Shown here piece after piece: positions 21,466 to 43,351 of a stretch of 64,000 bases of DNA (within the stretch, counting starts at the first letter, position 1; every line of letters starts with the position of its first letter). Position numbers and translations under genes: made by a program. Source of the stretch: Gammaproteobacteria bacterium Ga0077536 (GTDB lineage: Bacteria; Pseudomonadota; Gammaproteobacteria; Ga0077536). The stretch spans positions 62,001-126,000 of the forward strand of contig LNEL01000056.1 of the NCBI GenBank assembly GCA_001464935.1, given 5' to 3'. The notes below the pieces were generated by a model. It did not search any database and was not told where the DNA came from. It saw nothing but the letters and a program-made list of their open reading frames with translations.

Positions 21466-22461
21466 TCAGGTCCGCTGGCGCAGGGTGGCAAACGTGCGCA
21501 TCAGGCCCATCACGCGCCCGACATAGGCACTCGCGTCGTGATCGCCGCAGCGCTGTCCCTGGCGCAGTCGCAAACCTCGCGCCGCATGCACCGCGCCGGC
21601 GCCGGCCCCGCACAGGTGGGTGATGATCGCGAGTTCCTGCTGCTGGCGCAGCGTTGCGCGCCTGATCCCTTTGCGCTGCAGGATCTCGCGCACGCGCCGG
21701 TCGAGGTTCGAGGCGGCCAGCTCGACGGCATGCGATGGAACTACCCTCATGTACAGGCTGTTGAACCAGCAACTGTCCCAGTCGTGCCACGGTCCATCGG
21801 CCACCACGCGATGATCGCGGATGCAATAGCCACGTGCCTCATCGAAGGTGCCGTCGGTGAACTGGTACATGCCGACGGCACTCGACGCGGGACGGTAGAT
21901 TTCGAACGGTTTGCGCGTCGCCGACCATCGCCAGTAAGTTCGCGCGACCGGATTGCCGGAGGCTTCCTTCTGCGCCAGGGCGGCCAGCAGTTCGGGCGTC
22001 ATGATCGGCGTCGAGTGCGCAAGGAACAGCGGCGCGTAGGTGCGCCAGGTCTCGGCGGGGGTCTTGTACCAGTCGTCGCTGATCGGAAAGAACAGCTCTG
22101 ACGGCTTGCGGATGACCTGGTAGACCCAGTTCACCGTCGGGATGAGCAGCGCCAGCAGCACCACGCTCGCGAAGAACCAGACGAAGCCGGGCACGCGACG
22201 CAGCCGGGTAACGCGTCGCGCCCAGACTTTGTCGGGCACCGCGCGGGCAGGGGCCCTGGCCCGCACCGGCGTCGCCGGTGACGCGCTGGCGCCCGCTTTG
22301 CGCGCGCCTGTTGTCGCCTTGGCCTTCGGCCGCTTCGGCCCGGGCGCGCCGTCGCCGGGCTGCGCGCGCGCCGCCGCCGGCCTGGGCTTGACGGAAGGCT
22401 TGGCGGCGGGCGTTGGACGCTGACGTTTCGCGGGTGTTGGAACCGGTGGCGGGCGCGGCAT
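21466..22461 (-). CDS. Transglycosylase SLT-like domain protein with Ala/Pro/Lys-rich N-terminus and one TM
   Basis: 331 aa; LLAALAQKEASGNPVARTYWRW...SSAVGMYQFTDGTFDEAR, TM VWFFASVVLLALLIPTVNWVYQVI. Confidence 0.75.
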   Translation of the reverse strand: MPRPPPVPTPAKRQRPTPAAKPSVKPRPAAARAQPGDGAPGPKRPKAKATTGARKAGASASPATPVRARAPARAVPDKVWARRVTRLRRVPGFVWFFASVVLLALLIPTVNWVYQVIRKPSELFFPISDDWYKTPAETWRTYAPLFLAHSTPIMTPELLAALAQKEASGNPVARTYWRWSATRKPFEIYRPASSAVGMYQFTDGTFDEARGYCIRDHRVVADGPWHDWDSCWFNSLYMRVVPSHAVELAASNLDRRVREILQRKGIRRATLRQQQELAIITHLCGAGAGAVHAARGLRLRQGQRCGDHDASAYVGRVMGLMRTFATLRQRT

Positions 22462-22517: not shown

Positions 22518-24308
22518 TCAGCCCGCGCGGGACAATGCCCTGGCGGGCGGCGCGTCGAGGCCGCAGCGGGCGAGCAGCCACGCCGTGGCTTCGTCGGCAG
22601 GCAGCGGCCTCCCGAACAGGTAGCCCTGGCCCTTGTCGCAGGCGAGTCGCGCCAGCAGCGCGGCCTGACCTGCCGTCTCGATGCCTTCGGCCACCGTGCT
22701 CATGCCGAGACTCTGCGCGACGCGCACGGTCGCTTCGATCAGCACGACGTGATGCGGACTCGTCTCTGCCTGGCTCACGAACGAACGGTCGATCTTCACG
22801 ACGTCGACCGGCATCTGGTGCAGACAGGCCAGCGATGAATAGCCGGTGCCGAAATCGTCGAGTGCGATCAGCACGCCCAGCGCTTTCAATTCGGAGAGCC
22901 GGGTCTTGATCACATCGTCCTGCGCGGCGAGGCTTTCGGTGATCTCCAGCTGCAACATGCGCGGTTGCAGCCTGTTGACGGTCAGGGCGTGATGCACGCG
23001 TGACACGAGGTCGGCCTCGGCCAGCTGGGCGCGCGACACGTTGACCGACATCGTCTGCGGCGCGTCGGTCCCCAGCGCCGACTGCCAGCGGGCAAGCTGG
23101 CGCGCCGACTCCTGCAGCACGAAGTCGCCAATCGGCCCGATGAGCCCGGTGTCCTCGGCGACTTCGATGAATTCGATTGGCGGCACGACGCCGCGCGTCG
23201 GGTGGCGCCAGCGCACGAGCGCCTCGACGGACACGCAGCGCTGATCGGGGAGGCGCACGATCGGCTGATACACCACGTAGAGCTGCCGTTCTTCCAGCGC
23301 GCGGCGCAGATCGGATTCCACCGTGCCGCGGCGCTGCGCGCGCTCCTTCATGGCGAGATCGAAGACGCTGTAGCGGGCGCCGCCGGCACGTTTGGCATCG
23401 CGCATCGCGATGCCGGCGAACTGCAACACCAGTTCAGCGTCGTCATCGGTCTGCGCGCGCAACACCACCCCCATGCTCGCGCCCGCGTGCAGTTGATGCG
23501 CGCCGATGCCGTAGGGCTTCGCCAGCGCATCGAGCAGTCGCTGCGCGACGACGTGGACGTCCTCTGCCTGGCGCAGGCTTTCCAGCACGACGACGAACTC
23601 GTCGCCGCCGAGTCGACCGGTGGTGTGATGGGGCTGGCCGTTGAGCGCCAGCGCGTCACCGCTGCGGATGCTGCTGTTGATGCGCCCCGCCATCATCTTC
23701 AGCAGTTCGTCACCGACGCCGGTGCCGTGCGTGACATTCACGTGGTTGAAGCGGTCGCAGTTGATCAGCATGACGGCGAACTGGTAGTCGGGGTCAGCGC
23801 GCGCGCGGTCGATTGCCACGGCGATGCGCTCGACGACAACCGTGCGGTTCGGCAGCGCCGTCAGCGCGTCGGTGCGCGCGGCGTCGCGCACGCGCGTGGC
23901 GATGCGCTGCTGTTCCTGTTGCACGGCATGCGTGACATCGCTGAGGCTCGCCATCAGCGTCATCGAATCGAGTTTCAGCAGGCTCAGCGACAGCGTGCGC
24001 GCCCCGCCACCGCCGCACACGCGGGCCGGCAGCGTCAGTCGACGATCATCGCAGATCATGCCGTCGGGGCCCATAAAAGTCGCCGCAGTACGGCGCAGAT
24101 CCGGCGCAATCGGATCCAGCACGTCGAACAGGTTGGTCAGATCGCCGTCGGCAGCCAATGGCATCAGCAGCTGGGCCGACATGGGATTGATCATCGTGAT
24201 TTCGCCGTCGGGCGTGGTCTGCAGCAGGCCAATCGGCGCCTGGTAGAGAAACCGGATCAGGGCTTCGTGAGTCGTCGAATTGTCCGTGCGCATCGGTGAT
24301 GCGCTCAT
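22518..24308 (-). CDS. PAS-GGDEF-EAL protein (c-di-GMP signalling)
   Basis: 596 aa from [64 protein letters not shown]. Confidence 0.93.
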
Positions 24309-25624
24309 CCGTGCGCGGCGGCTGGCGCCGCGGGTGCCATTTCTTCCGACCAGCGTTCGACGCGATTGCGGCCCGCGGCCTTGGCCGCATACAGCGCGAC
24401 ATCGGCGCGCCGGTACAGGGCTTCGAGCGTGTCGATGCCGGCTTCCATCGTCGCCACGCCCGCGCTGACGGTGTACTGAATCTGCACGCCGTCGACCTCG
24501 ACCCGGTTCGCAGCCACCCGCTGGCACAGGCGCTCGGCGACGATACGAGCACCGTCGAGCGAGGTGCCGGGCAGCAACACCGCGAATTCCTCGCCGCCGA
24601 CCCGCGCGACGAGATCCGTGGTCCTGAAGGTCGCGCTCATGCCTGCGGACAGATGGCGCAGGACCGCGTCACCGGCGAGATGGCCGTGCGCGTCGTTGAT
24701 GCGTTTGAAATGGTCGGCGTCGATCAGCACCAGCGACAATGGCAACGGGGTCCGCTTCCAGCGCTGAATCTCGCGTTCCCCCGCTTCGAAGAAGGCGCGA
24801 CGATTCGACAGCCCGGTCAGGTGATCGCACAGCACCGAACGACGCATCGCTTCGTTCGCTTCGCGACGGTCGGTGATGTCGCGCAGGATGAGGCTGTAGG
24901 CGCGCTCGGTCGACGGCACTTCGAGGCGGTCGTCGAGCGGCGCGATCAGGCAGCTGCCCCAGAAGCGGGAGCCGTCGGCACGTCGTCGCCAGCCTTCGTC
25001 GAGACTCCAGCCGTCGATGTCCGCTTCCCGCAGCCGGTCGTGCAGACGATGGGCCGGCAGCGCGCCGTCGGCGTGAAACAGGTCGTAGGTCGCGCCGTCG
25101 GTGACGTCCGCCGCAAAACCCGTCAGACGTCCGATGCTCGGATTCCACGCGCGGATGCGGCCGCGGTGATCGAGCGTCATCATCGTGTATTCCGTGATGC
25201 CGCTCGTGATCGTCGACATCCACACCTGGTTCTGTCGCAACTCGTGCTCGCGCCGCACGGATTCGGTGACATCGCTGAGCACGGCCATCAGGCGCGAGTG
25301 GTCGAGTTTCAACAGGCTCAGCGACAGGATGCGCGCGTCGTCGTCATCGGCCTTCCGGTCGATGCGCAGGTGGTGTGCATCGCAGATCATGCCCTGCGCG
25401 TCCTTGAAGTCGTGCACACGCTGACGCAGGTCCGGGGCGATGTCCTCGAGCGCGTCGAACAGGTTGTCGAGCTCGCCGTTGTGCGTCAGCGGCATCATCA
25501 GCTGCGCGCACAGCGGATTGGCCATCACGATCGTGCCGTCGGGTTCGGTCTGGGCGATGCCGATGGGCGCGATGTACAGGAACTGCAGCAGCGCTTCGTA
25601 CTCGGCGAGTTCGGCATCAGACAT
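24305..25624 (-). CDS. PAS-PAS-GGDEF diguanylate cyclase
   Basis: 439 aa; N-terminal PAS, second PAS around [42 protein letters not shown] (GGEEF). Confidence 0.93.
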
Positions 25625-25637
25625 CGAGCGGGTCCGG

Positions 25638-26030
25638 TCAGGCGCGGCGCGATACCAGCACGTAACGAAGTTCCTGGCGCGGATGCGCGAGCAGTCGCAG
25701 TCGAACTTTGACCGGGCGCATTCTGAGGGTCAGCACGTAATCGATGGTGACATCGAGTTCGGCGCTCGCTGCCGCGGCATCTTCGAAGCGCTGCGCGACC
25801 ATGAAATTGTTCATGCAGGGCGCGACGACCGTGAACAGGTGATGGTCGAGCACGCGTTGCGGTGAGAGTCCGGCCAGCTTCGATTCGGTTGCGTTGTAGC
25901 GACGCACGACGCCGGCCGTATCGAAGCCGATGACACCAAACTCGAGTTCGTCGATCTCCTGCTCGCGGGCGTCGCCGAGGAAGCCCAGGACATGGGCATC
26001 GTCAAAGCCAATGGCAATTGTTTCGTTCAC
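25638..26030 (-). CDS. Photoactive yellow protein-like PAS protein
   Basis: 130 aa from GTG at 26030: (V)[73 protein letters not shown]...[15 protein letters not shown]. Ungapped match over the Y42/E46/C69 region recalled from Halorhodospira halophila PYP. Confidence 0.85.
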
Positions 26031-26229
26031 AAGGTTTCTCCAGGGTCGGTGGCGTCCCGTCGCGCTCGGAGCGCGACCCGATGCGTACGGCTTTCGCGCC
26101 GGGACTTGTTCCGTAGCGGCCGATCGCAAGTTCGCTTGAATCGCTGTAGGACAGGCTGGGCGTGGCCGGAGAGGGATCCGGCGCCGGCGGGAGGGGGGGC
26201 TGGTCGCGCCAGGCTGGCGCGGCAGCGGT

Positions 26230-26273: not shown

Positions 26274-28448
26274 TCAGAACGCGATTTCCACGCCGCCCTG
26301 GACCAGCAGCGGCATGCCGACCCGGATGCCGCGGGTGCGGTCGACGATGTAGTCGCGGTCGAGCAGGTTCTTCGCGGCGAGGAACAGCGTCGCGTCGTAC
26401 TTCTTGACGGGATAACTGGCGGCGAGGTTGAAGATCGTCGACGACTTGATGCGCCCGACCTGGCCGTTGCCGTTCAGCGGCGCGACTTCGGTGTTCGCGA
26501 AATCGGCGAACTGCGACGACGTATGCACCGCTTCGAGGCGCAGGTCGAAACCGGTCCCGTGCGTGTAACCGACGGTGGTCGTGGCGAGGTGTTCCGGCGC
26601 ATAGGGCAGCCGGTTGCCTTCGCGGGAGCCGGCAACGATCCGGCCGTTCGCCACTTCGGTCACCGCGGTTTCCTGGTCGGCGGTCGGGAGATAGGTATAT
26701 GCCAACTGCAGGTACCAGTTGTCGCGCGTCGACAGCAGTTGCTGGCTGTCGAGGCGACCGGAGAGTTCGAGGCCCTCGTACAGGGTCTCGCCCTGGGCCA
26801 GCGGCGTCGATCCGCCGGCGATCGAACCGACCTGGATCTGGTTCTCGAAGTCGTTGCGGAACAGCGTCGCCTCGACGTGGGCGCCGGGCCGCACGTCGCT
26901 GCGCACGCCGAATTCCGCGTTCCAGCTCAGTTCGGCATCGACCTCGGTGAAGGTTGCCGACGCGATGCCATTGGGCGTGACGATCAGGTCCTCGACGCGC
27001 GGCGGCGCGAAGCCGCGATGCACGCCACCGAACAGCGTCACGGTGCTGGTGGGGTTGTAGGTGACGCCGAAGCCCGGAATGACCTCGGCGACATCATCGT
27101 CTCCCGTCGCACCGCCCAGATTGTTCTGGCGATCGTTTTCCACGTATTCGACGCGCACGCCCGGGGTCACGGCGAACTGGCCGAGCAGGAAGCGGTTCTG
27201 CGCGAACATCGAGTAGGCATCGACGCCGCGTTCCTGGTTTTCGACGATGGTGCCCGCGCGCGCGGTCGCCGTGCGCCCGTTCTGCTGGATGCGATCCTGC
27301 GACTCGTAATGTGCGCGCACCCCGGCCTGGAATTCGTTGTCGATGCCGAACAGCCTGTGTCGCGCGAGCAGGCGCGGTTCGACGCCATAGGTGTAATAGC
27401 TGCGCTGCCGGCCCTGGATCGAATTGCAGGCATCGGGGTCGACGCTTCGGCCCGCGAGCCGCGCATTGGTGAACGCCGCGCCGCACTGACCGTCTGTCGT
27501 GGTGCTGGACTGGCGCCACCAGTCGCGCTTGAAGTGCGTGAAGTAGACGTTGGTCGTCAGGATCAGGTCAGACGAGAACGCAATTTCGTGAGCCAGCGAC
27601 GCGCCGGTGCGATCGACATTGAAGTTGTCGTTGTCGAACGGGTTGTACTGGTAACCGAAGTTGCGGAGTTCCGCGTCGGTGATGCCGGAATAGCCGACCG
27701 AGGAATCCTCGCCGTAATAGCTCGCCTTGAGCGTCAGCGCCTGGTTGCCGGCGAATTCGAGCACGCCCTTGAGGCTCACGTCGTCTATTTCGGTGTGTTC
27801 GTTGTCGCGTGCGCCGTCGCCCTGCTTGCGCAGGTAGTCCATCAGCATGCCCTTGCCGCCGAGGCTCAGACGCCCGTTGAAATAGTCACGGCTGCCGCCG
27901 CTGAGCGTCATACCGCCCTGAAACTCCTGGGGCGGCGTCGGCGTCACGTAATTGATGACGCCACCGATGGTCTGCGGTCCGAACAGGATTTGCTCGGAGC
28001 CTTTCAGGACCTCGACGCTGTCGAAGCGCTCGATCGGCGGATGGTAGTAGCTCGCATTGTCACCGTAGGGTGCGTAGGCGAGCGGCAGACCGTCCTCGAG
28101 CAGCAGCACTTTGGTCGAGCGGGTCGGATTCAGGCCGCGCAGCCCGATGTTGGGTCGCAGGCCGAAGCCTTCCTCGTCGCGCACGTGCACACCCGGCGCC
28201 TTGCGCAAGGCTTCGTTGACCGTGAACACACGACTCTGCCGCAGTTCGTTCTGGTCGATGATGGTGGCCGAGCCTGCGATCTCCGGCAGCCTGCTCGATG
28301 ACCCGATCACCTCGACGGTCGGCAGTGCCGTCACCGGTGCGCCGGAGTCGGCCTCCTGGGCCGAGGCGGTGCTGACGAAGCCGCCGGCGACGGCCAGCAG
28401 GGCCAGTCGGCGGGGCGCGGAACGACGGAAGGCGGGGCGGCGCGGCAT
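26274..28448 (-). CDS. TonB-dependent receptor (FecA-like siderophore/iron receptor)
   Basis: 724 aa; signal peptide ending ASAQEA, plug LRKAPGVHVRDEEGFGLRPNIGLRGLNPTRSTKVLLLEDGLPLAYAPYGDNASYYHPPIERFDSVEVLKGSEQILFGPQTIGGVINY. Confidence 0.95.
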   Translation of the reverse strand: MPRRPAFRRSAPRRLALLAVAGGFVSTASAQEADSGAPVTALPTVEVIGSSSRLPEIAGSATIIDQNELRQSRVFTVNEALRKAPGVHVRDEEGFGLRPNIGLRGLNPTRSTKVLLLEDGLPLAYAPYGDNASYYHPPIERFDSVEVLKGSEQILFGPQTIGGVINYVTPTPPQEFQGGMTLSGGSRDYFNGRLSLGGKGMLMDYLRKQGDGARDNEHTEIDDVSLKGVLEFAGNQALTLKASYYGEDSSVGYSGITDAELRNFGYQYNPFDNDNFNVDRTGASLAHEIAFSSDLILTTNVYFTHFKRDWWRQSSTTTDGQCGAAFTNARLAGRSVDPDACNSIQGRQRSYYTYGVEPRLLARHRLFGIDNEFQAGVRAHYESQDRIQQNGRTATARAGTIVENQERGVDAYSMFAQNRFLLGQFAVTPGVRVEYVENDRQNNLGGATGDDDVAEVIPGFGVTYNPTSTVTLFGGVHRGFAPPRVEDLIVTPNGIASATFTEVDAELSWNAEFGVRSDVRPGAHVEATLFRNDFENQIQVGSIAGGSTPLAQGETLYEGLELSGRLDSQQLLSTRDNWYLQLAYTYLPTADQETAVTEVANGRIVAGSREGNRLPYAPEHLATTTVGYTHGTGFDLRLEAVHTSSQFADFANTEVAPLNGNGQVGRIKSSTIFNLAASYPVKKYDATLFLAAKNLLDRDYIVDRTRGIRVGMPLLVQGGVEIAF

Positions 28449-28637: not shown

Positions 28638-30116
28638 TCAGGGCTTGCCGCTGTAGGGGACGTGCGCTGGGGCCGTGGTGCTTTCCCAGCCGCCGCCGAG
28701 TGCGAGATAGATGTTGATCAGCTGCTGGGTGAGGTTGATCTCGGAAAGCGCCAGCTGGTCCTCGATCGACAGCAGGCTCCGCTCGGCATCGAGCACGGTC
28801 AGGAAGTCCTCGACGCCTTCGCGATAGCGCAACTGGGCGAGTTCGCTCGCGGTGCGGCTGGCGTCGCGCGCGGACTGCAGTTGCGCGCGACGATCGCGCT
28901 CGTTGAGCCAGGCGCTGAGCGCGCTGTCGACTTCTTCGAGCGCGGTCGTGACGGTCGCCTCAAAGCGCGCCATGTTCGCGGCCGCCGCGCTGTCCTGCTG
29001 CCGGATGCGCGCATAGATGCCTTCGCGATCGAACAGGTTCCAGCTGACCGCCGGCCCGAGTCCGAAGAACGGCGCGCCGGCGGAGGTGAGGCCTGACAAG
29101 GGTGCCGCGCCGACCCCGACCCTGGCGCCGAAGGTCACGGTCGGAAAGAGCTCCGCCGTCGCCACGCCGACGTTCGCCGACGCCGCGGCGAGCGCGCGCT
29201 CCGCCGCCTGCACGTCGGGGCGTCGGCGCAGCAGATCGGCCGGTGTGCCGAGTGCGACGAACGCCGGCATCGCCGGCAGCGGTGCATGCGGTCCCAGCGT
29301 CGCGCTCAACGCGCCGGGCGCCTGTGCCGTCAGCGTTGTCAGACGGTTCAGCGCGGCCGTGGTCTGCGCATCGAGACTCGGGATCGTCGCCTGGCTCGTC
29401 AGCAGCTGGGTGCGGGCCCGCGCGACGTCGAGTTCGGTCGCCGCCCCTTCCGTGTTCAGCAACGTCACGAGTTCGAGCGCCTGCCGCTGCACCGAGACAT
29501 TGCGCCGGGCTACTTCGAGTCGCGTCTGGGCCCCGCGCAGATCGACGTAGGCGCGCGCGACGCGGCCGAGCACGGCGGTGACGACACCGTTGCGCAGGGC
29601 TTCCTGCGATCCGATCTCGGCGGTGGCCGCCTCGACCGAGCGACGGATGCGCCCGAACAGATCGAGCTCCCATGACAGGTCGAGGCCGAGGCTCGCGCTC
29701 GCCAGGGTCGGCAGCGCGTTGTCCGGTTCCAGCTGTGGCACGAGCGCAGACGAATTGCGCTGTTCCTGCACCGATGCGTTCGCATCGATCGTCGGACGCC
29801 GCCGCGTCTCGACGGCCGCGAGCGCGGCGCGCGCGGCTTCGACGTTGGCGACCGCCACGCGCAGGTCGTAGTTCGCACCGAGCGCAGCCGTCATCAACGC
29901 ATCGAGCTGGCTGTCGTGCAATTCACGCCACCACGCGTCGGGCGGTGCAGTCGTCGACAGTCGGCTGTCGGCCGTGCCCGACGACGGGAAGCTCGCTGCG
30001 CTGTCGGCCGTGCTGACGGGCGGGCCCGCGTAGTCGGGACCGACCGCCGCGCAGCCCGCGAGCAGCGCGACGGCGAGGCCGAGGACAAGTCCTCGAGCGG
30101 GGGCTCTGGCGATCAT
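28638..30116 (-). CDS. Efflux transporter outer membrane factor (OprM/NodT-type lipoprotein)
   Basis: 492 aa; lipobox LLAGCAAVGPDY, PPDAWWRELHDSQLDALMTAAL, RRRPDVQAAERALAAASANVGVATAELFPTV. Confidence 0.95.
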   Translation of the reverse strand: MIARAPARGLVLGLAVALLAGCAAVGPDYAGPPVSTADSAASFPSSGTADSRLSTTAPPDAWWRELHDSQLDALMTAALGANYDLRVAVANVEAARAALAAVETRRRPTIDANASVQEQRNSSALVPQLEPDNALPTLASASLGLDLSWELDLFGRIRRSVEAATAEIGSQEALRNGVVTAVLGRVARAYVDLRGAQTRLEVARRNVSVQRQALELVTLLNTEGAATELDVARARTQLLTSQATIPSLDAQTTAALNRLTTLTAQAPGALSATLGPHAPLPAMPAFVALGTPADLLRRRPDVQAAERALAAASANVGVATAELFPTVTFGARVGVGAAPLSGLTSAGAPFFGLGPAVSWNLFDREGIYARIRQQDSAAAANMARFEATVTTALEEVDSALSAWLNERDRRAQLQSARDASRTASELAQLRYREGVEDFLTVLDAERSLLSIEDQLALSEINLTQQLINIYLALGGGWESTTAPAHVPYSGKP

Positions 30117-33100
30117 GGATGGGCCTCGCCGGTCGGCGCCGGCGGCTTGCGGTGGCGTTCGACGAACTGCGCGAAGCGTCGGGCCACGATGTAGAACACC
30201 GGCGTGAAGATGAGGCCGAAGAAAGTCACGCCGAGCATGCCGAAGAACATCGCAGTGCCGAGTGACTGGCGCATCTCGGCGCCGGCACCGGTCGCAATGG
30301 CCAGCGGCACCACGCCCATGATGAACGCGAACGAGGTCATCAGGATCGGTCGCAGGCGCGTGTGTGCGGCGCGCGCGGCGGCGGCGACGGGGTCGAGCCC
30401 GTCCCGCTCACCCTGGCGCGCGAACTCGACGATCAGGATCGCGTTCTTCGCCGCGAGCCCGATCAGCACGATGAAACCCACCTGCACCAGGATGTCGTTC
30501 TCCATGCCGCGCAGGTTCACACCCGTCACGGCCGCGAGCAGGCACATCGGCACGATCAGCACCACCGCCAGCGGCAGCATCCAGCTTTCGTACAGTGCGG
30601 CCAGCACCAGGAACACGAAGGCCACCGCGAGCGAGAACGCGATTGGGGCGGTGTTGCCGGCAAGCTTCTCCTGCAGGGCCATGTCGGTCCATTCGAAGCC
30701 GAAGCCATCCGGCAGGACCTCGGCGGCAATCCGCTCCATCGCCGCCAGCGACTCACCGGTCGACACGCCCGGGGGTGTCACGCCCTGCACTTCGGCGGCG
30801 AGATAGAGGTTGTAGCGCGACACGCGATGGGGGCCGGTCAGGTCCTGGAACGTCGTCAGCGAGCCGAGCGGCACCAGCGCGCCGCTGTCGGAGCGCGCGC
30901 GCAGCTTCAGCAGGTCCTCGCGCTGATCGCGGTAACCCCCTTCGGCCTGCGCGGTCACGCGGTAGGTGCGGCCGAGGAAGTTGAAGTCGTTGATGTACGC
31001 GGAGCCGAGATAGATTTCCAGGGCGTCGAGCACGCGTTCGGCCGGCACGCGCAGTTTCTCGGCGCGCACACGATCGATGTCGGCGAACACTTTCGGCGTC
31101 TTGGTGTTGAAGGTGGTGAACACGCGGGCGACGTTCGGGTCCTGGTTCGCGCGCGCAATCAGTTCCTGCGTCACGCGCTCGAGTTCACGCACGCCGTATC
31201 CGCCGCGGTCCTGCACGTACAGTTTCCAGCCGCCGCCGGTGCCGATGCCACGTACGGGCGGTGGCGGCACCACGAAGGCCATCGCTTCCTGGATGGTGCC
31301 GAGCTTGGCCTGCGCCGTGGCCACGGTGTCCTCGATGCTCAGACCCAGCGCTGCCCGTTCCTCGTAGGGCTTCAGCGGCGCGAACACGGCGCCCGCGTTC
31401 GACGCATTGGTGCGCGTCGCGCCGTCGAAGCCGGCAAAGCCCGCGTTGTGGGCCATTTCCGGCATCGCCAGCAGCAGCTTCGTCGCGCGCCGCACGACCT
31501 CGTCCGTGCGCGACACGGAGGCGCCGGGCGGGAGCTGGTAGACCGTGATCAGGTAGCCCTGATCCTGTTGCGGGATGAAGCCCGTCGGCGTGCGATTGAA
31601 TTCGACGACCGTCAGTGCGACGAGCCCGGCGTACACCAGCAGCATCAGCGCCGTGATGCGCAGCACCCGCCTGGTGAGCCAGGCATAACTGTCCGACAGG
31701 CGGGCGAAGCCCGCGTTGAAGGTCACCGCAATCGCCGTGAACGGCGCGAGCAGCACGCGCGCCGCGACCGGCCGCCGGTGATCGGGATCGTGGGCCTTCA
31801 GCAGCAGCGCGCCGAGGGCGGGCGACAGGGTCAGCGACACCAGCGCGGAGATGATCGTCGCGCTCGCGACCGTCAGCGCGAACTGGCGGTAGAACTCGCC
31901 GGCGATGCCGGTGATGAAGGCGGTGGGCACGAACACCGCCGTGAGCACCAGTGCGATGGCAATCAGCGCACCGCCGACCTCGTCCATCGTGCGATGCGCC
32001 GCCTCGCGCGGCGCCAGGCCCTGCGCGAGATAACGCTCGATGTTCTCGACGACGACGATCGCGTCATCGACCGCGATGCCCACCGCGAGCACCAGGCCGA
32101 ACAGTGTCAGGTTATTGATCGAGAAGCCGAAGGCGGCCATCACCGCGAATGTGCCGATCAGCGAGATCGGTATCGCGACGATCGGGATGACCGCGGCGCG
32201 CCACGACTGCAGGAACAGCAGCACCACGAACACCACGAGCAGCATCGCCTCGAATATCGTCAGGTACACCTCGTGCACCGACTGCTCGATGAACTTCGTC
32301 GGATTGAACGCAATCGTCGCGTCCACGCCGGACGGAAAGTCCTTGCGCATCTCCTCCAGCAGGTCCTCGATCGCCTGCGCAGTCTCCAGGGCGTTCGATC
32401 CCGGACGCTGGAAAATCGGGATCGGCAGCGCCGTCTTGCCGTCGAGATAGCCGATCGTCGAATAATCCTGCGCGCCGAGCTCGACCCGCGCGACATCGCG
32501 CAGCCGGGTGATGCGTCCGCTCGGCGTGCGCTTGACGATGATGTCGCCGAACTGCTCGGGATCGATGAACCGGCCCTGGCTCTCGATCGGCAGTTCGAAC
32601 GCGGCCGGCGCCGGCACCGGCAACTGGTTCAGCCGGCCCGAGGCGACCTGCACGTTGTTCTGCCGCACGGCGTCGACGATTTCGTCGGCCGTCAGATCGC
32701 GGGCCGTCGCGAGTTCGGGGTCGATCCAGATCCGCATCGAGTACGCGCGCTCCGCGAAGATGCTGAACTGGCCCACGCCTTTCAGGCGCGCGAGCCGATC
32801 GACGACCTGCGTGCGCGCGTAGTTCGACAGGTAGGTGCCGTCACGCGAGCCGTCCGGCGAATGCAGATGCATCACCATCAGCATGTCCGGCGAATTCTTC
32901 GCGACGTTGACGCCGAGCCGCCGCACGTCTTCCGGCAGGCGCGGCTCGGCAATCGCGACGCGGTTCTGCACCAGCACCTGCGCAAGATCGAGGTTCGTGC
33001 CGAGTTCGAAGGTCACGCTGATCGTCAGCCGGCCGTCGCCGGTCGACGAGGACTGCAGGAACAGCATGCCGTCGACGCCGTTGATCTCCTGCTCGAGCGG

Positions 33101-33295
33101 CGTCGCGACGGTTTCGGCGATGGTCTCGGCGCTGGCCCCCGGATAGGTCGCCGTGACCTGGATGGTCGGCGGCACGATTTCGGGGTACTGCGCGACCGGC
33201 AGCACGAAGTAGGCAATCGCGCCCACGAGGGTGATCACGATCGAAATCACCGACGCGAAGATCGGCCGCTCGATGAAGAAGTGGGACAGGCGCAT
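30113..33295 (-). CDS. RND efflux permease (HAE1/AcrB family)
   Basis: 1060 aa; FFIERPIFASVISIVITLVGAIAY, VGIAVDDAIVVVENIER, ENDILVQVGFIVLIGLAAKNAILIVEFAR. Confidence 0.97.
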   Translation of the reverse strand: MRLSHFFIERPIFASVISIVITLVGAIAYFVLPVAQYPEIVPPTIQVTATYPGASAETIAETVATPLEQEINGVDGMLFLQSSSTGDGRLTISVTFELGTNLDLAQVLVQNRVAIAEPRLPEDVRRLGVNVAKNSPDMLMVMHLHSPDGSRDGTYLSNYARTQVVDRLARLKGVGQFSIFAERAYSMRIWIDPELATARDLTADEIVDAVRQNNVQVASGRLNQLPVPAPAAFELPIESQGRFIDPEQFGDIIVKRTPSGRITRLRDVARVELGAQDYSTIGYLDGKTALPIPIFQRPGSNALETAQAIEDLLEEMRKDFPSGVDATIAFNPTKFIEQSVHEVYLTIFEAMLLVVFVVLLFLQSWRAAVIPIVAIPISLIGTFAVMAAFGFSINNLTLFGLVLAVGIAVDDAIVVVENIERYLAQGLAPREAAHRTMDEVGGALIAIALVLTAVFVPTAFITGIAGEFYRQFALTVASATIISALVSLTLSPALGALLLKAHDPDHRRPVAARVLLAPFTAIAVTFNAGFARLSDSYAWLTRRVLRITALMLLVYAGLVALTVVEFNRTPTGFIPQQDQGYLITVYQLPPGASVSRTDEVVRRATKLLLAMPEMAHNAGFAGFDGATRTNASNAGAVFAPLKPYEERAALGLSIEDTVATAQAKLGTIQEAMAFVVPPPPVRGIGTGGGWKLYVQDRGGYGVRELERVTQELIARANQDPNVARVFTTFNTKTPKVFADIDRVRAEKLRVPAERVLDALEIYLGSAYINDFNFLGRTYRVTAQAEGGYRDQREDLLKLRARSDSGALVPLGSLTTFQDLTGPHRVSRYNLYLAAEVQGVTPPGVSTGESLAAMERIAAEVLPDGFGFEWTDMALQEKLAGNTAPIAFSLAVAFVFLVLAALYESWMLPLAVVLIVPMCLLAAVTGVNLRGMENDILVQVGFIVLIGLAAKNAILIVEFARQGERDGLDPVAAAARAAHTRLRPILMTSFAFIMGVVPLAIATGAGAEMRQSLGTAMFFGMLGVTFFGLIFTPVFYIVARRFAQFVERHRKPPAPTGEAHP

Positions 33296-37529: not shown

Positions 37530-40500
37530 TCAGCGTTCGATCGAATAAAGCACGTCGGCGCCGGTGCGGGTCCCGGTTTCGGCTTCCAGGCTCCAGTGCT
37601 TGCCGAGCAGGTAGCGCAGGCGCACGGTGTTCGCGCGGTCGATGAGCCCGACGCCGTAACCGACATACAGCTTCGGTGACAGGAACTTGCCGACGTTCAG
37701 CGCGAGATCGCTCGCCGCGGGGCTGCCGCTCAGTTTCAATTCGTCGAGGCCGAAACTGCGCGCAATGCGCTCGGTCAGCACGTTGCCACGACGCAGGCCC
37801 AGCGCCGACGCGGCCTCGATCAGCGCGCCGGCATCGGTGGACGACGCGCCGCTCAACGGCCGCCCGATCAGCAGGTAGCTGAGAATGTCACCATCGGGCA
37901 GCGCCGGCGTCGAATAGAGCGTGGTGCGGGGGTCGCGCAGACGGCCGCTGACGCGCATGCCGGCCGTGATGTCGTCCACCTTGCGTTCCGCGCGCGCATC
38001 GACCGCCGGGTCGTCGAGCGCCTGGCCGCTGTAGAACACGCGACTGTCCCTGATCGTCAGCGCCTGGCCGTAGGCGCTGTATAGGCCATCGGCGATTTGT
38101 AGCTCGCCGCTCGCGCGCGTGGCCTGCCGCGGCCGATCGCTGACGCGCAGCGTGCCGTACAGGCGGCCGGTAAAGCCCTGCGCGGCCAGCGTGACCTGGT
38201 CACCGAGCGTGACGCGGATGTCCGCATCGAGCATCGAACCCTCGGTGTCCGGCGGCGCGCGACCGACGACGATCACGTCGTCCGAGCGCTGCGTGCCCGG
38301 GCTGCCGGGACGCAGCGCGAAATGTCCCTCGGGGATCTCCACCGTGCCCCTGAGGCGGGTCAGGGCCGCTCGCCAGTCGAGCGCGAGATCAACGCTCGCC
38401 AGCAGGCTCGCTTCCGGCAGATCGACCACCTGCAGGCGCTCGCTCGTCACCGCCAGCGTCGCGAACAGGCCCGCCGTGTCCTGACCGGCTTCACCGCGCA
38501 GCGCCGCACGTCCGGCGCCCGAGCGCAGACTGCCCGTCACGTCGAAGCGCTCCGTGCCGGACGCCGTGATCGCGAGCGCGGCCTCCTCGATCGCAATCCC
38601 CAGCCGGTTCAACTCGGCGCGTTCGACGGTCAGTGTCGCGCGGCCGGCGGTCTGCGGGTCGGCCACGGTGCCGGTCAGCGCGAGATCGAGCGCGGCTCTG
38701 CCGCGCAGCTCGCCGATGTCGTCCGTCTGCGTGACCCACGGCGCGAGCGCGTCGGCACTGGCCGTCAGCCGCCCGGACACCGGCAGCGTGCGCCAGCGTT
38801 CGAGCGGCCACGGGCCGTCGTGCAGCGTCAGCTCGAGCGCGAGCGGGACCGTCGAGGGCTCCACGATCGTCGCGTTCGCCGCCAGCCGCAGCTCGCCGTT
38901 CGTGGTGTTGACGCGCCATTCGAGTCCGCGATGCACGATCGGCGGCCACGGCTCGCCCAACGGCGGCAGTGCGCCGCCCGCCAGCGCCAGCCGGCCGGTG
39001 GCCGAGTCGAGCAACAGCGCCTGACCGCTGAGCGCCAGTTCCCCCGTCACGGCGCCGCGCTGCCACGCCGCTGCCGGCGGCAGGGACGCAAGCTCGAAAG
39101 CCTCCGCGTCGATCGCCAGCTGCCATCGACCCTGCGCATCCTGTGCCGCCGCCACGCACAGGGCGCCGTCGCCGTCCCAGCACTGGCGTGCGAGCTCGAA
39201 GGTGCCGTCGGTGACCGGCCCGACGATGGCAAAGGCGGCCGGTGCGCGCAGGGCGAGATCCGGGTGTGCGGCCCGCGCGAGGCGGCCGCTCAGCAGGCGG
39301 CCCTGCCAGCGCCCGGGCGTGCTGCCGTCGCCGTCGAGCGCGAGCGTCAGTCGCGAGGTCCCGGCGCGCGCATCGAGATCGAGATGGTGATCGGCGAGCA
39401 CCCCGTGCGCGTCGAGCGTCAGGGACTCGAGCGTGTGGGTCTCGCGGCGCGCGTTCTGGAGGTCGATGTGCAGTTGCTGCGCGACCGTCGCGCGCGGATC
39501 CACGCGCCAGCGGGCGTTCAGGGCGGCGACGGCCAGCTCGCCCAGGCGTACATCGCCGGCAACGAGTTCGCCGGTGGTCGCAGGCAGCGGCAGCGTGCCG
39601 GTCAGCGTGCCGTGGCCGTGCAGGTGGCCCTGTGCGGCGGGCCACAGGTCGGCCAGCGCCGGCGCGGCGACGCGCCAGCGCAGACTGCCCGAGTCGCCGA
39701 TCGTGCCCGTGGCCTCGAGCGTCGCCGCACCCGAGCGCAGCGCGAGGGCGTGCACCGTCAGCGTCGAGCCCGCGCGCTCGATGTCCGCCTCGCCGCCGAG
39801 CGGTCGACCGCGCAGGCGGCCGCCGAGCTTCGACAGCCGCAGCGAGAAGGCCGCCGCCGTGCCGGTCGACTGCAGGTCGAACGCCAGGCTGCCCGGAAAG
39901 TCCGCCGCGAACCACGCAGGATCGACCTCGCTGCCGTGCAGCCGGGCGTCCCAGGCCAGCGCCGGGCCGGACCAGTCGAGTCGCGCGTCGCCGCTCAGCC
40001 GCCCGGCGCCGGTGTCGGCGACGAACGGACGCACGACGAGACTGTCCAGCGTGCCGCTGAACGAGCCGCGCACGGTGCCCGCCGGCAGGTCGTCGATCTG
40101 CAGCGCGAACTCGCTGCTGCCGGTATGGGACTCGAGGCTGCCGGCCGCGTCCGCGCGGCCGTGCACGCTGCGCACCTGTCGTCCGTCGTCCAGCGTGTGG
40201 CGGAGCTCGCGCCACTGGCCCTCCAGATCCCAGCGGAGCCCGGGCACCCAGCCCACGTGGCCGCTGGCATGTGCGTCGCCGCCGGTGGCGAACGTGGCGT
40301 CGAGTGCTGCGATACGCAGCTCGCCCGGCGTGCCGTGGGCCTCCAGGGTCCAGTCGGTGTCAGGCCACGTCCCGGCGCGGGTGGCCGCGCGCAGCGTCAG
40401 CGCATAGTCGGACTGCCGGCCCCGCAACGTGAAGCGGCCGTGCGGACTGTGCAGCCGGGGCTCCGCCAACAGCGGCCAGCGCAGCGCGGACCAGTGTCCG

Positions 40501-41549
40501 CTGAGATCCACGCGGACGTCGGCGCCGGCGGCCGGCAGTTCGAGGACGCCCTGCAGATCGAGCTGTGCCGCGTCGGCGTCGCGCAGCGCGAAGCGTTCGA
40601 TGGCGATGACGCCCTGGGCGTCACCGCTGCCGCGCGCCTCGAGGGTCCAGTGACCGAACTCGCGCGTGTGCAGGGCGAGCGCGGTCTCGAGCGTGAACGC
40701 AGCGCCGACACCGCTGGCACTCGCTTCGCCGCCGAGCGTCGCGTCGATCGCCGCCACCGGCGGCAGCGGCTGCCCGGGCGGCAAAGCGAGCGCGACCTGC
40801 CAGCGGGGGCTGCCGTCGGCGATGTCGAGCGTGCCCTGCGCCTGCGCGACGAGCGGCGCGGTCAGCCGATGCGTGAACGCGAGCCTGCTGCCAGCGCCGT
40901 CGACCTCGCCCGCCCCGGCAACGCGCGCGGCGTCGGCGCCGTGTTCCCAGCGCAGCGTCGCTGCCAGCGCGGACGGTGTCGTCCCGCCCCAGCGGCCCTC
41001 GAGGTGGACGCGCGTGTCGGCCAGTGCGACGTCGAGACCTTGCAGCGTCAACGGGCCGCCCGCCGGCCATTGCAGGCGCGCGGCGAGTCCGGTGGCGTCG
41101 AGCGGCGCCGCCGCGCCGCCGATCACGCGCAGGCGATCGATGCGCGCGTCATCGATCGTCACGTCGAACGGCATCGCCGGCAGGGAGGGCAGCTGCGTCG
41201 GGGGCGGGCCTGCCGTCGGCGCCAGGGTGAGCTCCAGCCCCGACACTTCGAGGCGAGTCAGCCGCAGGTGGCCTGCGAACAGGGTCGACGGCCGAAGGCT
41301 GAAGCTGACACGGTCGGCGGTCACGCGCAGGCCGTCGGTCACGTAGCGCAGATCGCTCAGCGTCGCGCCGTCGCGCAGGCTGCCCGCGACCGCGCCGGCC
41401 CGCAGACCGTCGGGGGGCAGCGCGCGCTCGGCCGCCGCCAGCAGCAGCCGCAGCCCGGTCTGCGTCATCAGAAGCAGCGGCGGCAGGGCCAGCAGGCCGG
41501 CCATCAGCAGGCTGGCGACGACGAGCACCGTGGTGCGCTGCCGGCTCAC
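37530..41549 (-). CDS. tamB: Translocation and assembly module subunit TamB
   Basis: 1339 aa from GTG at 41549 (VSRQRTTVLVVASLLMAGLLALPPLLLMTQTGLRLLL); C-terminal DUF490 YGQALTIRDSRVFYSGQALDDPAVDARAERKVDDITAGMRVSGRLRDPRTTLYSTPALPDGDILSYLLIGRPL. Confidence 0.93.
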   Translation of the reverse strand: MSRQRTTVLVVASLLMAGLLALPPLLLMTQTGLRLLLAAAERALPPDGLRAGAVAGSLRDGATLSDLRYVTDGLRVTADRVSFSLRPSTLFAGHLRLTRLEVSGLELTLAPTAGPPPTQLPSLPAMPFDVTIDDARIDRLRVIGGAAAPLDATGLAARLQWPAGGPLTLQGLDVALADTRVHLEGRWGGTTPSALAATLRWEHGADAARVAGAGEVDGAGSRLAFTHRLTAPLVAQAQGTLDIADGSPRWQVALALPPGQPLPPVAAIDATLGGEASASGVGAAFTLETALALHTREFGHWTLEARGSGDAQGVIAIERFALRDADAAQLDLQGVLELPAAGADVRVDLSGHWSALRWPLLAEPRLHSPHGRFTLRGRQSDYALTLRAATRAGTWPDTDWTLEAHGTPGELRIAALDATFATGGDAHASGHVGWVPGLRWDLEGQWRELRHTLDDGRQVRSVHGRADAAGSLESHTGSSEFALQIDDLPAGTVRGSFSGTLDSLVVRPFVADTGAGRLSGDARLDWSGPALAWDARLHGSEVDPAWFAADFPGSLAFDLQSTGTAAAFSLRLSKLGGRLRGRPLGGEADIERAGSTLTVHALALRSGAATLEATGTIGDSGSLRWRVAAPALADLWPAAQGHLHGHGTLTGTLPLPATTGELVAGDVRLGELAVAALNARWRVDPRATVAQQLHIDLQNARRETHTLESLTLDAHGVLADHHLDLDARAGTSRLTLALDGDGSTPGRWQGRLLSGRLARAAHPDLALRAPAAFAIVGPVTDGTFELARQCWDGDGALCVAAAQDAQGRWQLAIDAEAFELASLPPAAAWQRGAVTGELALSGQALLLDSATGRLALAGGALPPLGEPWPPIVHRGLEWRVNTTNGELRLAANATIVEPSTVPLALELTLHDGPWPLERWRTLPVSGRLTASADALAPWVTQTDDIGELRGRAALDLALTGTVADPQTAGRATLTVERAELNRLGIAIEEAALAITASGTERFDVTGSLRSGAGRAALRGEAGQDTAGLFATLAVTSERLQVVDLPEASLLASVDLALDWRAALTRLRGTVEIPEGHFALRPGSPGTQRSDDVIVVGRAPPDTEGSMLDADIRVTLGDQVTLAAQGFTGRLYGTLRVSDRPRQATRASGELQIADGLYSAYGQALTIRDSRVFYSGQALDDPAVDARAERKVDDITAGMRVSGRLRDPRTTLYSTPALPDGDILSYLLIGRPLSGASSTDAGALIEAASALGLRRGNVLTERIARSFGLDELKLSGSPAASDLALNVGKFLSPKLYVGYGVGLIDRANTVRLRYLLGKHWSLEAETGTRTGADVLYSIER

Positions 41550-43351
41550 AGGTCGGGCCCGACGATCACGTGCAGCCGCCACGAGCGATCGTCTTCGGTC
41601 ACGCCGTTGGCGACATCCACGCGCACCAGGCCGACCGGCGACAGCCAGCGCACGCCGATGCCGACGCTGTACGCCATCGGATCCGACCACGAGTTCACCG
41701 CGTTGCCGAAGTCGCTGAACACCGCCGCGCGCCAGGGCCCGCGGATCTCCTGTTCGAGCTCGACACTGCCGAGCGCGAGATAGCGTCCACCAACGACCTT
41801 GCCAGCGCTGTTGCGCGGGCCGAGGGAGCGGAAGTCGAAACCGCGCAGACTGTTGTCGCCGCCGGCAAAGAAGCGCTGCGTGACGGGCAGCCGATCGAAA
41901 TCGGATATCGCGGTGGCGCCGAGCTCCGCGCGCGTGATGAGACGCGTGCGCCCGATCGCGTGGATGAATTTCCCGTCGACGCGCAGCTGCGCGAACGAAA
42001 TGCCGGACAGCAGCGCCGACTGCGCGCCGCGCAGGCTCATGCCGAGGCGCAGTCCGCGCCGCGTGTCGATGCGATTGTCCGCCCAGGTCCGCAGCCAGCG
42101 TCCGGACGGAATCAGCAGTCTGCTGGTTTCCGTCTCGTTGCCGACGTCGAAGCGCTCGACTTCGTAATCGAGCGCCAGCGTTTCCTGCCAGCCATGGCGC
42201 ACGGCGAGGTGCGCGGCGCCGAACTGCAACCTCGTGCTGTCGCTGACGTCGGTGTTTTCCTGCAGCAGGCTGGTGGTGATCGACAGCGCATTGGTATGCG
42301 CGGGCATCAATGGAATGGTGTATCCGCCTGACAGACTGCTCAGCACCGGCGACAGGCGCAGATCGGCATCGAGTCGATGGCCCCGCGCATTGATGTAGGG
42401 ACGCTGCCACGCGGCGCGGGCGCGCGGGCCGGTGTCGGTGCCGAAACCCAGACCGAACGAATAGCGCTGCGCTTTGCGCGGCGTCAGCGTGATGTCGATC
42501 GGCACGCGATCGCCGGCGGCCAGATCGCTGCGCGGCTCGACGGTCACGCTCGTGAAATAGTTGCTGTCGGTGAGGCGGCTCTGCAGGGTGAGCAGATCCT
42601 CCGCCACATACGGGGCGCCGGTCTGGAAATCGACGAAGCGGTTCAGGAAGTCTTCGGCGAGCACGGTGTCCGGCCAGCGGACGGGGCCGTAGCGATAGCG
42701 GTGGCCGCTGTCGACGACGAGTGCGATGTGCGCCGTGCCTGCCGCCGGATCGATCAGGACTTCGTGCCGGACGAACGCTGCGTCGAAATAACCGCGATCG
42801 GACAGGCGGCGTTCGAGTTGCCGCTTGCCGGCCTCGTAACGCTCGTGCCGGAAAACCTCGCCCGTGGCGAGCGGGAACTCGTCGATCTGCCCGGCCAACT
42901 CAGGGTCCTCGCCGGCGGCGCCGGTCAGTTCGACGCGCAGCGCCGCGACCCGTACCGGGTCGCCGAGTGTCACCCGGTAGCTGGCGCGCCAGGCGTCGGC
43001 GTCCTGTTCGATGCTCGGGGTTATCGTCGCCCGGTAGTAGCCCAGCGCCTCCAGGGCGGCGCCGAGGCTGGCCGGTGCGCGCCGGTGCAGGGCCTGGATG
43101 CGACCCGGTGAAATGTCTTCGAACGCCGGTCCCAGCGCGGCGTCCAGATGCTTCAGCAGTTGCCGGCGCAGGGCGGATTTCACGCCTGTCAGTTCGAATG
43201 ACAGGCTGTCGGCGCTGGCCGACGGGCCGGCGCACGCCGCGCCGAGCACCGCGACCAGCACGGCGAGTCGCGCGCGACCACGGGCCGGCGTCGCCACCGG
43301 GTGCAGGCAATGTTCAGGGCTTCGGCCGGAAAGCCGGTTGCGACGTATCAA
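41546..43351 (-). CDS. tamA: Autotransporter assembly complex protein TamA (Omp85 family)
   Basis: 601 aa; POTRA-like repeats, RFFAGGDNSLRGFDFRSLGPRN, WSDPMAYSVGIGVRWLSPVGLVRVDVANGV. Confidence 0.95.
   Translation of the reverse strand: MIRRNRLSGRSPEHCLHPVATPARGRARLAVLVAVLGAACAGPSASADSLSFELTGVKSALRRQLLKHLDAALGPAFEDISPGRIQALHRRAPASLGAALEALGYYRATITPSIEQDADAWRASYRVTLGDPVRVAALRVELTGAAGEDPELAGQIDEFPLATGEVFRHERYEAGKRQLERRLSDRGYFDAAFVRHEVLIDPAAGTAHIALVVDSGHRYRYGPVRWPDTVLAEDFLNRFVDFQTGAPYVAEDLLTLQSRLTDSNYFTSVTVEPRSDLAAGDRVPIDITLTPRKAQRYSFGLGFGTDTGPRARAAWQRPYINARGHRLDADLRLSPVLSSLSGGYTIPLMPAHTNALSITTSLLQENTDVSDSTRLQFGAAHLAVRHGWQETLALDYEVERFDVGNETETSRLLIPSGRWLRTWADNRIDTRRGLRLGMSLRGAQSALLSGISFAQLRVDGKFIHAIGRTRLITRAELGATAISDFDRLPVTQRFFAGGDNSLRGFDFRSLGPRNSAGKVVGGRYLALGSVELEQEIRGPWRAAVFSDFGNAVNSWSDPMAYSVGIGVRWLSPVGLVRVDVANGVTEDDRSWRLHVIVGPDL

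Follow-up and report, generated by a model that had tools for sequence, protein, structure and literature searches.

The analysed window, a 64,000-nt stretch of contig LNEL01000056.1 from Gammaproteobacteria bacterium Ga0077536, carries a three-gene operon on its minus strand, and the first gene of this operon, pyp, encodes a photoactive yellow protein (PYP). The pyp gene (25638–26030, minus strand, stop codon included) starts with GTG, encodes 130 aa, and was present as a single copy in a search of the whole host genome. The ORF of the original prediction is therefore real and of the length given there; its strand, left unstated, is minus. Read directly from the sequence, the upstream stretch GGAG-AAACCTT-GTG offers a good ribosome-binding site, the probable GGAG element (26038–26041, minus) standing 7 nt before the start codon. 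A promoter scan found nothing.

Gene 2 (24305–25624, minus, 439 aa) begins 13 nt past the pyp stop codon and has the architecture D-PAS-GGDEF, where D is an N-terminal domain described below. It has a GGEEF active site together with an RxxD inhibitory site and matches TIGR00254 (E 2.4e-47), and it is predicted to be an active diguanylate cyclase. The ATG of gene 3 (22518–24308, minus, about 596 aa) overlaps the gene 2 stop codon (ATGA). Its product is organized as D-GGDEF-EAL, with a GGDEF domain without the RxxD site and with EALVRW and the other EAL and metal-binding motifs intact; it matches EAL phosphodiesterase models and is predicted to be a phosphodiesterase or a bifunctional enzyme. 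These two genes, the most informative part of the locus, had been omitted from the original prediction.

We also examined the surroundings of the operon. A 331-aa ORF (21466–22461, minus) lies 56 nt past gene 3 and might be a fourth operon gene; it reads as a membrane-anchored, lytic-transglycosylase-like protein, with no Pfam match at 0.001. Before pyp, likewise on the minus strand (26274–28448 and 28638–33295), come a TonB-dependent receptor and then what reads as an outer-membrane efflux protein together with an RND pump, with no obvious light link. The region 38000–42000 has a G+C content of about 0.74, compared to 0.65–0.71 elsewhere in the window.

Identity and chromophore pocket of the window PYP

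By sequence comparison, the 130-aa ORF is a PYP homologue beyond doubt. In phmmer searches of PDB sequences its best 33 matches were all PYPs or PYP-derived proteins, including the PYP domain of Rhodospirillum centenum Ppr (1mzu; E 2.4e-18) and the PYP of Halorhodospira halophila (E 5.5e-12). The only NCBIfam match was TIGR02373 photo_yellow (E 1.3e-23), and its 83.4 bits fall short of the equivalog cut-off of 143.05 bits. We did not assign the protein to this equivalog because of that score, and the model covers only a part of the family, recovering about 20% of BLAST-found PYPs according to PMC9664959. Pfam PAS_4 and PAS both exceed their cut-offs on the window PYP, so automatic naming would end at a PAS domain, as had been anticipated in the original prediction.

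The four pocket residues proposed earlier were all recovered by alignment. Cys72 (codon 25815–25817, minus) aligns with Cys69 of H. halophila PYP, the position of the chromophore thioester, and the original prediction thus placed the cysteine correctly. The codons from Tyr45 to Glu49 (25884–25898, minus) span the equivalents of Tyr42 and Glu46, the hydrogen-bond partners of the phenolate, and Met104 (25719–25721, minus) corresponds to Met100. The ungapped 45-residue block reported against H. halophila PYP was likewise correct, although the full alignment has a gap between Cys69 and Met100. In the numbering of H. halophila, used from here on, the equivalents of Phe28, Gly29, Tyr42, Glu46, Phe63, Ala67, Pro68, Cys69, Tyr94 and Met100 are invariant in all 82 clade-C PYPs, the group to which the window PYP belongs (see below).

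An AlphaFold2 model of the window PYP built with 39 aligned relatives had a mean pLDDT of 90. The best 40 Foldseek matches of the model were all PYP entries or PYP-derived proteins, and its superposition on H. halophila PYP, a check proposed at the outset, gave a TM-score of about 0.84 at 2.0 Å. The window PYP is thus like H. halophila PYP and Ppr-PYP (1mzu) in fold and in chromophore residues, at about 26–38% identity in structural alignments, but departs from them at Ala50, Leu52, Leu62, Leu96 and Thr97 and in the MNNFM that follows Cys69. Alanine and leucine in place of Thr50 and Arg52 had been put forward as changes that could tune the spectrum or the kinetics. We rejected the view that they are special tuning changes, since the published consensus of 984 PYPs (Dohmen et al. 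2025, PMC12826048) has Ser47, Leu49, Ala50, Leu52 and Thr97, and Leu52 (82/82) and Ala50 (79/82) are the norm in clade C.

Clade C membership and origin of the cassette

In our tree, the 82 clade-C PYPs formed a monophyletic group that excluded the 13 PYPs of other kinds (support 0.81, stem 0.85), and all D-linked PYPs fell within this one clade. Together with the sequence, the pocket residues and the predicted fold, this placement bears out the PYP identity in the original reading of the ORF as a PYP-like blue-light sensor, a reading that was partly supported as a whole. The clade is marked by a 10-residue signature opened by the chromophore cysteine, C-M-N-N-F-M-V-A-x-R (69–78), where other PYPs mostly have C-T-(D/N), and by a second stretch, L-T-L-R-M, at positions 96–100. 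Phe92, Phe96 and Trp119 are missing from clade C; the window PYP has Ile92, Leu96 and Tyr119 with Met100, and leucine at position 62.

Clade C is an already named group, described by Xing, Gumerov and Zhulin 2022 (PMC9664959) as mostly Burkholderiales and with no characterised member. The window PYP agrees with that description in keeping Cys69, Tyr42, Glu46 and Met100, in losing Phe92, Phe96 and Trp119, and in having adjoining GGDEF genes, an adjacency that the same paper gives as ‘often’. It is a new member of clade C, and its GGDEF/EAL neighbourhood had been published as frequent. It differs in its host, which belongs to another order with no further clade-C PYP among the genomes searched.

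The window PYP nests within Burkholderiales sequences in the tree, nearest to a Variovorax PYP (L023), and the cassette is present in one of the 36 genomes of the host's order, the window genome alone. Horizontal acquisition of the cassette is likely on account of this nesting and of the sole carrier in the order. The G+C content of the pyp locus (0.66–0.69) is unremarkable compared to the surroundings. Clade-C pyp with D was also seen in two metagenome-assembled contigs binned to Gemmatimonadota (L047, Gemmatimonadaceae) and Myxococcota (L065, Archangium), reflecting either horizontal transfer or mis-binning.

A PAS-fold domain common to both enzymes

The N-terminal domains of about 130 residues in genes 2 and 3, here called D, are identical at 67/121 positions (55%). 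D occupies residues 1–128 of gene 2 (25241–25624, minus) and the stretch 23922–24308 (minus) of gene 3. Neither window D matched Pfam; a single marginal PAS match (0.016) was obtained among 43 D members, and a search of PDB sequences returned no relative of D. A model of D built with 43 relatives (mean pLDDT 92) gave 17 Foldseek matches at E ≤ 0.001, chiefly PAS or LOV domains, with the best E-values between 6e-5 and 1e-3 and TM-scores of 0.44–0.60. Given PAS-fold matches of the model and no Pfam match, D is, as modelled, a PAS-superfamily module missed by public profiles, and TM-scores of only 0.44–0.60 mark it as a diverged member. It resembles the superfamily in predicted topology and differs from it in escaping Pfam and in having no PDB sequence relative.

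The D domains of EAL proteins formed a lineage of their own, which held 55/57 EAL-type and 0/64 GGDEF-only D domains; the two EAL-type domains outside it came from ORFs with two D domains in one frame. Since the two types are separated in this way, one old duplication gave rise to cyclase-type and hydrolase-type D, and many lineages have kept both.

Linkage of D with clade-C PYP

D is a separate PAS-fold family with a near-exclusive linkage to clade-C PYP. In 81/81 clade-C loci, which comprise the window and 80 relatives, pyp is followed directly by a D-domain ORF of the same orientation. These loci had been picked by PYP similarity, and an independent genome survey was made for that reason, covering 394 genomes from one family, that of a Massilia genome, with thresholds of E < 1e-30 for clade-C PYP and E < 1e-20 for strong D. 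PYP and D occurred together in 95 genomes, D only in 1, PYP only in 0 and neither in 298 (Fisher p 6e-92, a statistic that ignores shared ancestry). PYP adjoined D in each of the first 30 D loci from the survey (L141–L170). Four further D loci consisted of two with PYP, one orphan and one that ends with its contig. Strong D was found only in the window genome among 36 genomes of the host's order and 369 of its class; PYPs of other clades occurred without D in two other genomes of the order and in six of the class.

In the orphan (genome G514, L197:4488-5753) the D-PAS-GGDEF gene is intact and preceded by a TetR-like gene, and no PYP was found in the genome, so D can persist alone. As the sole orphan D in the 394 genomes, it may represent decay after pyp loss or a D with another partner. 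A second copy of D was seen beside a 32-residue PYP remnant in another genome (G535:C1:3751190-3751686), apparently a decaying second operon.

The outputs attached to D vary, and include PAS-GGDEF, GGDEF-EAL, HisKA/HATPase and PAS alone. We identified three D-histidine kinase fusions (L011:8152-9570, L016:8151-9539 and L065:1195-2442), and Pfam confirmed HisKA/HATPase for L011 and L065; the fusions of L011 and L016 come after a D-GGDEF-EAL gene adjoining clade-C pyp. In two Massilia loci (L062:6120-7190 and L063:6379-7212) the first downstream protein is D-PAS with no GGDEF. Across these architectures, the input module D stays while the output changes, and such retention across unlike outputs is unexpected of a mere passenger of one enzyme. 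With neighbours controlled for, the distance correlation of PYP was no better for D than for the GGDEF domain, and this test lent no further support to a PYP–D contact.

Chromophore supply

The host assembly (4.83 Mb, 92% complete) was searched for a tyrosine ammonia lyase (TAL) and a p-coumaroyl-CoA ligase, the genome check suggested with the original prediction. The outcome was negative for both: the 92%-complete genome gave no PF00221 match for an aromatic ammonia lyase, and its best TIGR02372 match for the ligase scored 48.2 bits against a cut-off of 334.7. The missing enzymes weaken the claim that the window PYP is a light sensor but do not refute it, because TAL is absent from most published pyp operons and because at least 16 of 45 clade-C genomes lack a complete lyase other than the HutH type. 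A PF00221 lyase was present in 43 of these 45 genomes and absent from two, which are counted among the 16. As those genomes have at most a HutH-type complete lyase, a dedicated TAL is not part of the clade-C package. With no aromatic ammonia lyase in the host, p-coumarate would be either imported or made differently; import of plant p-coumarate is, we infer, the simplest source, in keeping with a published remark on possible uptake by certain PYP bacteria.

We examined and rejected TAL as the usual clade-C companion, since most of the lyases carry the SH signature of the HutH type. We take SH to denote HutH and HHL to denote classical TAL; the canonical HHL type was found only in Pseudohongiella (G408) among the lyases examined. 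Some clade-A PYPs have a YHG-type lyase nearby, and in Methyloversatilis such a lyase precedes clade-C pyp by about 3 kb; the motif was read there in one of four loci. MIO-type ammonia lyases were seen about 3 kb upstream of pyp in L022, L025, L026 and L030 and also near pyp in L183, L024 and L031; where checked, the selectivity motif of the lyases near clade-C or clade-A pyp was YHG, unlike SH or HHL. The best AMP-ligase candidate among those studied in detail (L004/L199) was rejected as a p-coumarate enzyme, since it is a benzoate-CoA ligase and belongs to a box benzoate cluster.

Discussion

We propose that the clade-C PYP of the window shifts the products of genes 2 and 3 through their shared D domain, producing a light-dependent change of c-di-GMP, an explanation that we hold to be somewhat better than evenly probable as a whole. 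The chromophore on Cys69 would be p-coumaric acid or a close phenolic, its phenolate held by Tyr42 and Glu46. Blue light would isomerise this chromophore, the protein would become looser near the loops of Cys69 and Met100, and in one light state PYP would bind the N-terminal D of each downstream protein. The cyclase (gene 2) and the GGDEF-EAL phosphodiesterase (gene 3) would then shift together, probably in opposite directions, so that c-di-GMP and biofilm or motility would change sharply with light. A region of PYP that includes positions 69–78 and 96–100 rearranges on signalling. These two stretches are natural candidates for facing D, because they are invariant in a clade-specific manner, flank the chromophore and lie in the region that moves on signalling.

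A further proposal, on which we place an even chance, is that D is a dedicated receiver for clade-C PYP, such that one free-standing photoreceptor docks on a c-di-GMP synthase and on a c-di-GMP hydrolase, in some bacteria on a histidine kinase, and drives them oppositely with light. A search of the open literature for a shared partner domain of this kind found nothing in the accessible text of PMC9664959 and PMC12826048 or further afield, and in that literature, where an earlier mention is possible, we found no prior description of a D domain borne by the two enzymes as well as by alternative kinases. Counted against the mechanism are the PYP–D distance correlation, the orphan D, the absent lyase and ligase, the loss of Phe92, Phe96 and Trp119 in clade C, and Leu62 of the window PYP.

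Some of these points bear on whether D is the contact at all. A photoactive PYP could act on c-di-GMP via the second PAS domain of gene 2, via GGDEF or via another protein, with D as a separate PAS sensor in the same operon. Operon neighbours are inherited together, and linkage alone would give much of the PYP–D pattern; in the distance correlation, PYP agrees best with the GGDEF part, and a D without PYP exists in G514. However, D is the sole part common to all the partners, whether their output is GGDEF, GGDEF-EAL, histidine kinase or PAS only, and it is absent where genomes hold only PYPs of other clades. We regard a PYP that bypasses D as unlikely.

Other points concern the signal. The clade-C PYP of the host may not be a p-coumarate light sensor, its cysteine pocket instead holding another phenolic or a thiol-reactive ligand or sensing redox, with the operon coupling that signal to c-di-GMP. 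The missing PF00221 lyase in the host, the lyase counts in the clade-C genomes (including the two with none), the loss of Phe92, Phe96 and Trp119, and MNNFM after Cys69 in place of TD/TN all lean this way, and a shift from light to redox has been proposed for methylobacterial Ppr-PYPs (PMC9664959). Those proposed redox variants, according to the same paper, lose Cys69 and Tyr42, whereas clade-C PYPs without exception (82/82) keep Tyr42 and Glu46, the known holders of the phenolate, along with Cys69 and Met100, and an operon without TAL is the usual case among published pyp operons anyway. We consider a ligand or redox sensor of this kind quite improbable. It is also conceivable that the three genes are a non-functional or recently acquired cassette from a Burkholderiales-like donor, perhaps silent for want of chromophore, as might be suggested by a single carrier among the 36 genomes of the order, by the nesting of the window PYP among Burkholderiales beside Variovorax, and by a host with no chromophore genes. 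No reading frame or catalytic motif of the three genes is disrupted, and the G+C content of the locus matches its surroundings; we give a silent cassette very little credence.

The proposed coupling of PYP to both enzymes through D has parallels in two described systems. In Idiomarina loihiensis a single-domain PYP likewise adjoins a c-di-GMP enzyme, and blue light lowers biofilm formation, according to PMC9664959 and PMC12826048. That PYP belongs to clade A and its neighbour is a GGDEF gene, whereas the window has two enzymes of opposing predicted activity that share an N-terminal domain, and in the searched genomes this domain accompanies clade C only. A PYP input is also joined to a c-di-GMP output in Ppd of Thermochromatium tepidum (PYP-phytochrome-GGDEF-EAL), but there as one fused protein with a phytochrome, whereas the window proteins are separate and would be linked through D.

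A 2025 review names the downstream partner of single-domain PYPs as an important gap, even though PYP is among the physically best-studied photoreceptors. The linkage of D to clade C provides a named, small and expressible candidate partner that is open to a direct binding test. The missing ammonia lyase raises a second question, namely the source of the chromophore in these bacteria. The operon would be a natural two-way light switch for c-di-GMP, which would also make it of use in optogenetics.
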